From positions 62,001-126,000 of IMG/VR virus record IMGVR_UViG_3300031951_000001: a DNA stretch of 64,000 nucleotides. One strand, written 5' to 3'. Below, in pieces: positions 31,908 to 38,932 of the stretch. The position numbers were made by a program, and so were the translations under genes. The notes beneath the pieces are model-generated. The model saw only the letters and a list, made by a program, of their open reading frames with translations, did not search any database and was not told the origin of the DNA. This stretch comes from a virus. Positions within the stretch are counted from its first letter, which is position 1; each line of letters starts with the position of its first letter.

Positions 31908-31938
31908 GTTGATTGAGTAAAATTAGTTAGTATATTTG
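31908..31938 (+). promoter_or_regulatory. host-type promoter for the tRNA cluster
   Basis: GTTG ending at 31911, 19-nt spacer, TATATTTG at 31931-31938, about 11 bases before the tRNA-like RNA. Confidence 0.65.
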
Positions 31939-31949
31939 TAACTCAATAT

Positions 31950-32084
31950 AGTCAAGTGGCGGAAATGAAAGAGTACTCTTCAGGCAGACGCGACGCATGG
32001 TTATAGCAGCGTGGGTTAAAAAGCATCGTTTCGATGTGGTTACTATAATGACACCCCGTGAAGGTTCGAACCCTTCCTTGACTA
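31950..32084 (+). tRNA. oversized tRNA-like RNA (135 nt), identity uncertain
   Basis: The ends form a good tRNA half: acceptor AGTCAAG/CTTGACT, T arm GAAGG-TTCGAAC-CCTTC and discriminator A. The D arm is Leu-like (GCG...CGC), but its loop carries an extra self-complementary insert around GAGTACTC. The next arm, ACGC..GCGT with an inner TG/CA, presents the loop GTTATAG (possible anticodon UAU). The variable region is about 45 nt and can fold as a GGGT/ACCC stem with two hairpins (CATCG-TTT-CGATG and GTTA..TGAC). At 135 nt it is far longer than normal. It could be a tRNA with inserts or a tRNA mimic. Confidence 0.6.
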
Positions 32085-32100
32085 CTAATTTTTTAATAAA

Positions 32101-32217
32101 ATGAAATACAATAACAATACACCTTTCGAAGAATTTATGTATCGTTTTGCGGTGGCTTTCGGAGTAACCGTGGTAGTTTTAAACTTAATTATTTTGGTTT
32201 TTAAGTTGATTGGTTAA
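32101..32217 (+). CDS. very small membrane protein between tRNAs
   Basis: A 38-residue frame (MKYNNNTPFEEFMYRFAVAF...) with one C-terminal membrane helix (VTVVVLNLIILVFKLIG). It lies 16 bases after the tRNA-like RNA and upstream of tRNA-Leu, probably on the same transcript. Function unknown. Confidence 0.5.
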   Translation: MKYNNNTPFEEFMYRFAVAFGVTVVVLNLIILVFKLIG

Positions 32218-32253: not shown

Positions 32254-32337
32254 GCTGGGATGGTGTAACGGTAGCCACGAGGGACTTAAAATCCCTTGGA
32301 CATTGTGTCTGTGCGGGTTCGAGTCCCGCTCCCAGTA
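32254..32337 (+). tRNA. tRNA-Leu (UAA)
   Basis: An 84-nt type II tRNA with acceptor GCTGGGA/TCCCAGT, D stem GTG/CAC, and anticodon stem AGGGA/TCCCT with loop CTTAAAA (TAA). The variable arm is long (TGGACATTGTGTCTGTG), and the T arm is GCGGG-TTCGAGT-CCCGC. CCA not encoded. It reads UUA, a frequent codon here. Confidence 0.95.
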
Positions 32338-32343
32338 CTTTTA

Positions 32344-32417
32344 GTGCCTTTAGCTCAATCGGTTAGAGCAACTGACTCATAATCAGTAGGTCGTAGGTTC
32401 GATTCCTACAAGGCGCA
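32344..32417 (+). tRNA. tRNA with CAU anticodon (elongator Met or Ile2)
   Basis: A 74-nt cloverleaf with acceptor GTGCCTT/AAGGCGC, D arm AGCTC...GAGC, anticodon stem ACTGA/TCAGT with loop CTCATAA, and T arm GTAGG-TTCGATT-CCTAC. It has a paired first position, so it is not an initiator. Whether C34 is lysidinylated to read AUA cannot be seen. It follows tRNA-Leu by six bases. Confidence 0.92.
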
Positions 32418-32448
32418 CGATATTTATATAAACTAAAAACTAAATTTG

Positions 32449-36042: not shown

Positions 36043-36941
36043 AATTCGGAAATGACCGAAGAAGTTCTTTGAAAATTAGATTATCCATCAGGATGTTGAT
36101 GATGAGACCTTAGGGTTGATTCTGAGACAACTGTAAAAGATAATGGGCCGTGTATGGTCCTTAAATAAACTACGAAAGTAGGATAAAGTGACCTCCCCCG
36201 TGTTGAGGAGGTTGCGGTTTCGAAAGGAACTCGAGTACACAAGTGGGATATCACAAGACCTTTAGTACCGAGGGTAACACTGTAGGGAAAGTGGTCAGGT
36301 GACTTGGCAAAGTGGATTGTCAAGTTGAGGTGGGAACACCAACAAGAATAACCCATAGGAATCAAGTAAGAAATGTGGCTTCCAACTACAATATTGCGGA
36401 TTCCAATACAGAAGGGTACTTAAAACCGAAAGGTAAGGTAGAGAACGAGTGGTGTCGCTACTACCCCTAAGGAAGACCTACCAAGGTCTCTTTATGAAGT
36501 AATCTGAAAGTATGGAGATAGGGATATCTCACGGAGTAGTTTAGTATTCTGTCGCTCAAAAGGAGACGGAACTTACGGTGGACCACTACTCTGACACATC
36601 CACGACACAATCTTAAATTATTAAAAAATAATTAAAGGAAAAGTGTCCATCAGGTTTAAGTGAAAGGTCACTACCTAATCACTGGCTGTCAGTGGTACAG
36701 AAAGACCCCAAGTCCGACTGTAGTTTTACGAAAAACCTTTAATCCCGCAAGGATGAACTGGGGTGGCAACCTCGGAAAGAGTTAAGTAATAAGAGAGTAA
36801 CTTAAACCTCAAGGAGTGGTAAACCTAAAAGACCGTGACTGAGAAATACTTCTCAAAAGGAAGTGGATACGAAGGGAAACAATAATCCTTCAAAAGGTTC
36901 TCACAGAAAGCTGTAATCTCAGGCTTCGTTTAATCTTACAT
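36043..36941 (+). ncRNA. large structured non-coding RNA, about 0.9 kb, GOLLD/ROOL-like candidate
   Basis: A stretch of about 900 nt without a convincing ORF, with many local hairpins, several closed by GNRA-type loops. Examples: GGTG-GGAA-CACC (36329-36340), GAGATA-GGGA-TATCTC (36515-36530), AGACC/GGTCT (36474-36489), CCTCC/GGAGG (36192-36211), ACTTG/CAAGT (36302-36325). GC content and purine-rich linkers differ from the flanking coding DNA. It has its own promoter, a boxA-like GTTCTTTGAAAA near the 5' end, and runs directly into an initiator tRNA. Size, phage location and tRNA linkage match the GOLLD and ROOL classes. I cannot confirm the class by eye. Confidence 0.7.
36064..36075 (+). promoter_or_regulatory. 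boxA-like antitermination element
   Basis: GTTCTTTGAAAA matches the boxA sequence of bacterial rRNA leaders. It lies about 30 nt after the promoter of the large RNA, where an rRNA-type antitermination complex including NusG could load. Confidence 0.5.
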
Positions 36942-37014
36942 CGCAACTTAGAGCAGAGGCCAGCTCGTCAGGCTCATAACCTGAAGGTCGGAGGTTCGAA
37001 TCCTTCAGTTGCAA
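36942..37014 (+). tRNA. initiator tRNA-fMet (CAU)
   Basis: A 73-nt cloverleaf with acceptor CGCAACT/AGTTGCA, in which position 1 C faces A72, the mismatch that marks bacterial initiators. The D arm is GAGC..GCTC, the anticodon stem TCAGG/CCTGA with loop CTCATAA, and the T arm GGAGG-TTCGAAT-CCTTC. The stem has only two G-C pairs next to the loop instead of three. CAA rather than CCA follows. It is joined directly to the large RNA upstream and is followed by a terminator. Confidence 0.92.
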
Positions 37015-37023
37015 CAAATTTAC

Positions 37024-38550: not shown

Positions 38551-38557
38551 CTTACGG

Positions 38558-38932
38558 TGGAGGTACGGGGAGTCGAACCCCTTCCTACTCATCTTAACTA
38601 CTAAGCCCTACATGTTTAGGTCAACATCGCTTCTCAATGTTCCGAAATATTGGTTTTTGAGCTCTCAAAACCACAAACGAGTTGTGTTTCTTTTCGGGTA
38701 GAAACCACACCACAGTACGAGCTTCTGTTCCAAGGTTGTATGCTTACCGACCCGTTTTGTATCCCAATCCTAGATTAGGCTACTGAAATGTTCTCTTCAG
38801 TACGGATAAGACCAACTGCAGAGAGTTTGTTGATAACGTTGCCGTTTATCGTGTGAACCAGTTTTACAAGGTTAGTTCAGCCTCGACATGCTCCGAGTAA
38901 TTAACTATGCTAGTCAATTCCAAGTTACCCCC
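38558..38932 (-). ncRNA. ssrA: tmRNA (ssrA)
   Basis: A 375-nt RNA with the tRNA-like ends of tmRNA: 5' GGGGGTA paired with 3' TACCTCC, including the G3-U70 alanine identity pair, and T arm GGGG-TTCGACT-CCCC. Pseudoknot 1 is visible (CGAGG/CCTTG and TGAAC/GTTCA), followed after about ten bases by a tag frame with a GGC resume codon. The frame ends ...EENISVA then TAA (38775-38843). This tag is about 22 codons long, roughly double the usual length. CCA is not encoded (CCG). It rescues stalled ribosomes and marks proteins for proteolysis; a ClpC-like ATPase is encoded nearby. Confidence 0.88.

Follow-up and report, generated by a model that had tools for sequence, protein, structure and literature searches.

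A conserved tRNA-scaffold RNA of phages with a predicted pairing between the loop at the anticodon position and a hairpin loop of the variable arm

What is an RNA that has the upper half of a tRNA and a different structure below it? The question is raised by a locus in a 64,000-nt stretch of viral DNA (the window), which corresponds to positions 62001-126000 of a 322-kb virus record. A sequence-only reading had noted here a 135-nt tRNA-like RNA with perfect acceptor and T arms and an extra hairpin in the D loop. Direct reading of the sequence confirmed all of this and showed that the boundaries, 31950-32084 (+), are exact. The letters are AGUCAAG-UG-GCG-GAAAU[GAAAGAGUACUCUUCA]GGCAGA-CGC-G-ACGCAUGGUUAUAGCAGCGU-GGGUUAAAAAGCAUCGUUUCGAUGUGGUUACUAUAAUGACACCCCGU-GAAGGUUCGAACCCUUC-CUUGACU-A. 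AGUCAAG and CUUGACU form seven Watson-Crick pairs, with A73, U8 and G9 precede the D stem GCG/CGC, and the D loop is GAAAU-[GAAAGAGUACUCUUCA]-GGCAGA. ARAGORN called four tRNAs in the window (tRNA-Arg, tRNA-Leu and two tRNA-Met), 31950-32084 not being among them, and the Rfam tRNA model scored the element at 14.6 bits, below its cutoff of 29. The parts of the locus, with pairing and covariation as found among the homologues described below, are the following.

31931-31938 (+): TATATTTG, 11 nt upstream of the RNA; the sequence fits the -7 element TAnnTTTG
31950-32084 (+): whole tRNA-scaffolded RNA (pseudo-tRNA), 135 nt, CCA not encoded; 99.7 bits with model R1
31950-31956 (+): 5' strand of the acceptor stem, AGUCAAG; partner 32077-32083
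31959-31961 (+): 5' strand of the D stem, GCG; partner 31989-31991; D arm of Leu type in nearly all homologues
31966-31982 (+): optional D-loop hairpin UGAAAGAGUACUCUUCA with palindromic apex AGUACU; covaries with L155 (GGA..UCC)
31993-32012 (+): hairpin P1, ACGC-(bulged A)-UG-GUUAUAG-CA-GCGU, at the anticodon-arm position; 97.7% paired, compensatory changes being seen at 4 of 6 pairs
32001-32006 (+): L1, UUAUAG, 5' side of the putative kissing helix, partner 32043-32048; 99.5% paired, a related group showing one double change
32013-32057 (+): remodelled variable arm with closing stem P2 (32013-32015 with 32055-32057); 94.4% paired, two covarying pairs
32018-32022 (+): A-run between P2 and P3, conserved in the homologue comparison
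32023-32037 (+): hairpin P3, of variable sequence and length; 81.8% paired, with covariation at 3 of 4 counted pairs
32039-32052 (+): hairpin P4, GUUA-CUAUAA-UGAC; 97.2% paired, with U-G/U-A/C-G changes
32043-32048 (+): L4, CUAUAA, 3' side of the putative kissing helix, complement of L1
32060-32076 (+): T arm, GAAGG-UUCGAAC-CCUUC; the stem covaries at 4 of 5 pairs, T-stem pairing having been demanded for detection
32077-32084 (+): 3' strand of the acceptor stem, CUUGACU, and discriminator A73, read from the sequence
32254-32418 (+): tRNA-Leu(UAA) and tRNA-Met(CAU) genes, downstream of the RNA on the same strand

The multi-hairpin domain that had been described as an expanded variable region in fact comprises the anticodon arm and the variable arm remodelled together, the former into P1 and the latter into P2 enclosing P3 and P4.

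The folding energy of the single sequence was no better than that of shuffles (z = 0.15) and is uninformative, so the case for an RNA rests on comparison. Homologues were sought by pattern searches of viral contigs, with a D-arm pattern and a structural filter first and then with three patterns aimed at the core. This gave 40 distinct core homologues, the window copy counted, a number that depends on the chosen patterns and was obtained from incomplete contigs. All lie within an acceptor/D/T tRNA scaffold, as did 44 of the 45 matches to the core patterns; the exception, L185, has no T arm and looks like a chance match. A sequence identical to the window copy (L074/L122) is present in record IMGVR_UViG_3300031787_010241. 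With model R1, the 11 virus records that have the core each showed a single strong copy, and six other records with pseudo-tRNAs showed none.

One architecture is common to the 40 homologues: P1 with a bulged A, the closing stem P2, the A-run, the variable P3 and P4. The general form of P1 is N4-A-UG-GUUAUAG-CA-N4 (the bulged A being present in 39 of 40), that of P2 is GGG(U)...(G)CCC and that of P4 is GUCA-CUAUAA-UGGC. In L157, P2 reads UAGC...GCUA; this homologue has a different D arm and the acceptor AAAGGAG, yet the same core. Among 36 distinct homologous cores standard pairs filled 95.8% of the cells, compared with 85.4% in shuffles and 35-58% when the partners were slid, and the covariation score was 0.349 against 0.152 for shuffled sequences, none of 500 shuffles scoring as high. 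Double changes over the whole structure were seen in 115 cells, against 35 in shuffles and 7-16 with slid partners, in 36 rows that are kin, so that counts of pair changes do not equal independent events. P1, P2, P3 and the T stem covary in these rows, and P1 alone occurs in 14 different stem combinations. The T stem was paired in 100% of the rows, but its pairing was a condition of detection. As judged from the sequences, this comparative evidence is decisive for a real structured RNA at 31950-32084.

L1 and L4 are exact complements that would form a 6-bp loop-loop helix joining P1 and P4. The helix is mostly invariant across the homologues; the first two core searches fixed the letters of both loops and the third left them free. 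In five related sequences (L195, L198, L200, L201 and L205) the loops are UUAUAA/UUAUAA, a double change from G-C to A-U that keeps the pairing. A G-U change in L196 (CUAUGA) also preserves it, as U-G, and the search with free loops returned one homologue with an end mismatch in L4 (CUAUAU). Because the five UUAUAA/UUAUAA sequences have a D-loop insert that is also present in L170, a homologue with the usual loop letters, they probably represent one double change. In a separate core class (L015, L046) the P1 loop is AUACAG and a later hairpin loop is CUGUAU, which again are exact complements. Since pairing is kept through the double change and is re-created in this class, a contact between L1 and L4, within one molecule or between two copies, is well supported, with few independent changes behind it. 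The comparison thus shows that the upper half of the tRNA, with its acceptor, D and T arms, is intact and stands above a conserved four-helix domain. Within this domain the loop that takes the place of the anticodon loop is predicted to pair with a hairpin loop of the variable arm.

Can such an RNA decode? The acceptor, D and T arms of a decoding tRNA are present, and a 5-bp anticodon stem with an accessible 7-nt loop is absent, as P1 is bulged and its loop pairs with L4. Moreover, a canonical anticodon arm is absent from every homologue, and with few exceptions the would-be anticodon loop complements the second loop, which argues against the earlier suggestion of a tRNA that tolerates insertions. 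A precursor from which the inserts are to be processed is not favoured either, since no other part is as conserved and covaries as much as the inserted domain, whereas the contrary would be expected of a removable intron. The RNA would be unable to read codons because its only anticodon-like loop would be sequestered in the kissing helix. Very probably, it is a structured, conserved and non-decoding RNA on a tRNA scaffold.

Two ways of keeping a true tRNA were weighed. A self-locked tRNA with anticodon UAU (for AUA codons), freed under some condition, would explain the 7-nt P1 loop G-U-UAU-A-G with U33 and A37 in place and the matching AUA in L4. P1 however has a bulge and a sixth pair, the AUACAG/CUGUAU core class has no such anticodon and the D arm is of Leu and not of Ile type, which leaves this reading with hardly any probability. 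A decayed or intron-bearing tRNA-Leu would agree with that D arm and with the intact acceptor and T arms. It is scarcely credible either, in view of the conserved and covarying core and of the homologues, in which neither a normal anticodon arm nor an intron-like or splice structure was seen. Insert-free homologues with a normal tRNA-Leu had been named beforehand as the sign of a decayed copy; such a loss was found for the D-loop hairpin only and not for the core.

Other identities were also rejected. A small protein gene (frame ATG GTT ATA GCA...) is contradicted by in-frame stops in 16 of the 40 homologues, by the absence of a start in one and by a length that is not kept modulo 3. For a tRNA-Leu with a group I intron no Rfam intron match was obtained, and the inserted domain is itself conserved. 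No known Rfam family matched, a loose threshold yielding chance hits. The resemblance to tmRNA is in the acceptor and T arms and in the long structured domain that replaces the anticodon arm, and charging may likewise occur without an anticodon. In contrast to tmRNA, the 135-nt RNA has a full D arm, no match to RF00023 and no tag reading frame, the frame not being conserved in homologues, and the genome encodes a tmRNA of its own. This phage-encoded tmRNA, at 38555-38932 (-) of the window, scored 94.6 bits with Rfam and received no ARAGORN call. BLASTN of the element and of the homologue consensus against cultured phages gave partial matches to tRNA halves only. No description of the 135-nt RNA was found in the open-access literature; a prior one in subscription journals is possible.

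As the best explanation overall we regard a non-decoding phage RNA on a tRNA scaffold that acts as a tRNA mimic, a proposal in which we place about as much trust as doubt. A mimic was among the options of the sequence-only reading and is the one supported by the analysis; the regulatory or decoy role attached to it there may be envisaged.

The D-loop hairpin is a less constant part. It is missing in 15 of the 36 full-length homologues and takes many forms in the rest. In about 12 of the 21 D-loop inserts of the core class, six letters at the apex of the hairpin or close to it form a palindrome, in five different versions (AGUACU, UCUAGA, CCAUGG, UCCGGA and GACGUC). Palindromic apices, a pattern that was spotted post hoc, might fit homodimer kissing.

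The element is part of a wider family. The examined loci contained at least 160 distinct elements that combine a D arm of Leu type with a T arm and an acceptor stem of 7 bp. At least 132 of these were missed by ARAGORN and are Leu-type pseudo-tRNAs with unlike cores. Such pseudo-tRNAs, with long D loops and without an anticodon arm, are common in viral contigs. The same D-loop insert can be found on different cores (e.g. ACAAAGAGUAAUAGUAUGUGC in L050, L055, L067, L107 and L117) and the same core with different D-loop inserts, so the build of the family looks modular. Four more pseudo-tRNAs of about 95-121 nt are present in the window's own genome (G000:C1:18.9-19.6 kb, L135, minus strand), adjoining a tRNA-Glu; three have the acceptor AGTCAGG and one GGTCAGG, the T arm is mostly TACAGG..CCTGT, and one of the four has a non-Leu D arm. 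Among cultured phages, Bacteroides phage BS-TP2 carries an unannotated Leu-type pseudo-tRNA of the general type and Weissella phage PWc an unannotated relative that is also of the general type. A 735-kb phage (LR756501) has an unannotated 118-nt tRNA-like gene with a long insert between the D arm and the anticodon arm (L131:4864-4981). In L014, L085 and L086 a tRNA-Leu(UAA) with a normal anticodon arm has a 20-nt D-loop insert.

The family bears on the main rival of the mimic, a structured payload RNA whose protein- or ligand-binding domain uses the tRNA ends just for maturation and for protection against exonucleases, so that its function resides in the lower half. Such an RNA would be a natural equivalent of the tRNA scaffold used in the laboratory. 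It would account for a family in which one top half is constant (acceptor AGUCAGG in at least 66 of the 132) while lower halves and D-loop inserts are exchanged as modules, and for a core that keeps invariant unpaired letters (the bulged A and the A-run) as a binding site would. Against it, the Leu-type D arm is kept in nearly all members, beyond the needs of end protection, and a partner protein was not identified; on balance we consider it rather unlikely. E. coli LeuRS makes no use of the anticodon, and this independence, together with the Leu-type D arm and with A73 in at least 110 of the 132 pseudo-tRNAs, would suit an RNA that is charged by LeuRS and used outside decoding. Such a leucine acceptor is improbable, as 22 of the 132 have no A73 (among the matches listed), the acceptor stems vary and no amino-acid-transferring enzyme was found nearby. 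CCA is encoded in six of the 132 (among the matches listed).

The genomic context was studied for signs of how the RNA is made. The box at 31931-31938 fits TAnnTTTG, the consensus of the Bacteroidota -7 element. Boxes of this type lie upstream of only four of the 40 homologues (the window copy and three others), and a Bacteroidota promoter as a general feature of the RNA was rejected on this count. An exact-pattern search of 395 Bacteroidota genomes gave zero matches, and a model search of Bacteroidota genomes, in which few candidates per genome were scored, gave nothing; the RNA is so far phage-restricted. In about 20 of the 40 homologues the 200 nt that follow the RNA on its strand contain a canonical tRNA, in many cases at a distance of 10 nt, which suggests tRNA-type processing. 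The RNA would then be matured by RNase P of the host, by 3' tRNA processing and by the addition of CCA, since about half of the homologues belong to tRNA arrays and the CCA is not encoded.

Directly 3' of the RNA there is a conserved 38-aa ORF with one hydrophobic stretch (MKYNNNTPFEEF...), at 32101-32217 (+) in the window and also in L079 and L191 (three phages). A GOLLD RNA (317 bits) is located at 36532-36925 of the window, 4.4 kb downstream of the RNA, and a tRNA-Met (36942-37015) starts 17 nt after it. GOLLD as an obligate companion was rejected, since only 8 of 24 records have it, the record of the chance match L185 among them. A DUF932 gene is a recurrent upstream neighbour (L149, L152, L153, L176, L079 and others); it lies upstream in G001, G003, G006, G007 and, about 1.1 kb off, G010. 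It was rejected as a partner gene as it is far from the RNA, about 220 kb, in the window's genome.

Neighbouring genes also bear on the idea that the RNA is a Y RNA of phages to which a Ro60/TROVE protein binds. Part of the bacterial YrlA RNAs resembles a tRNA (PMC7790460), and they too are noncoding. In one phage the end of a TROVE + vWA gene is about 36 nt upstream of an RNA homologue, and TROVE occurs in 5 of 17 records. However, TROVE is absent from the window's 322-kb record, no Rfam Y RNA model matched, TROVE genes 77% identical to the RNA-adjacent one occur without the RNA, and TROVE genes sit in tRNA arrays anyway, often with other RNA motifs alongside. This makes a Y RNA very improbable. 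The protein encoded at L163:2091-3716 (also in L150 and L162), about 36 nt upstream of the RNA homologue, is a divergent phage Ro60-like protein of 541 aa with TROVE plus vWA. In L213, L214, L215, L216, L218, L219 and L068 a short inverted repeat like GTAGTAAC-N5-8-GTTACTTCG occurs several times on one strand beside Ro60/TROVE genes, far above chance; these repeats are possibly the Y RNAs of those TROVE phages.

How could a tRNA mimic act? The least certain step is that the RNA may occupy a host factor that recognizes the tRNA elbow, the D arm or the variable arm. The likeliest targets would be a defence nuclease that cuts tRNA or some other enzyme that binds it. The lower-half domain would set the target or render the RNA uncuttable. 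Retron-Eco7 PtuAB degrades tRNA-Tyr and phage tRNAs rescue from it (PMC11555353), retron-Eco7 and Septu cut the variable loop of tRNA-Tyr (PMC13096335), and YrlA has been suggested to compete with a tRNA nuclease (PMC7790460). As defences cut tRNA, including the variable arm of tRNA-Tyr, and as competition has been suggested for YrlA (PMC13096335, PMC11555353, PMC7790460), a decoy or competitor is plausible, and we put it forward as a tentative possibility. Against the mimic, no defence system or partner gene was found to travel with the RNA. A decoy role alone would also leave the strong conservation of one core beside quite different sister cores unexplained.

The tRNA mimic can be compared with other known RNAs. 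Like the tRNA-Tyr species of phages T5 and T6, it is encoded in tRNA arrays and may act against variable-arm nucleases (PMC11555353, PMC13096335), but those tRNAs decode and the 135-nt RNA has no usable anticodon. GOLLD and ROOL are also phage RNAs beside tRNA islands and have kissing loops (PMC12286853); they are much larger, not tRNA-scaffolded and unrelated in sequence. In the laboratory tRNA scaffold for recombinant RNA a foreign domain replaces the anticodon stem and the top half is kept for maturation and stability; that scaffold is engineered, whereas the RNA described here is natural and conserved.

A family of at least 132 distinct members has stayed unannotated because tRNA finders miss or mislabel such genes. 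We propose, with evenly balanced confidence, that many phages, including large ones, carry a big unannotated class of tRNA-scaffolded RNAs with a conserved top half, in which D-loop hairpins and lower-half domains are exchangeable heads, and which serve as tRNA mimics against tRNA-directed defences of the host or carry RNA binding modules in a stable form. One conserved head, with a loop-loop interaction that covaries, would have the window element as its founding member. Owing to its clear comparative structure, one class already lends itself to structure probing and gene deletion. If these RNAs are matured as tRNAs yet do not decode, they would be natural probes of host factors that read the tRNA upper half alone, and if they blunt tRNA-cutting defences they would represent a directly testable RNA-based counter-defence.
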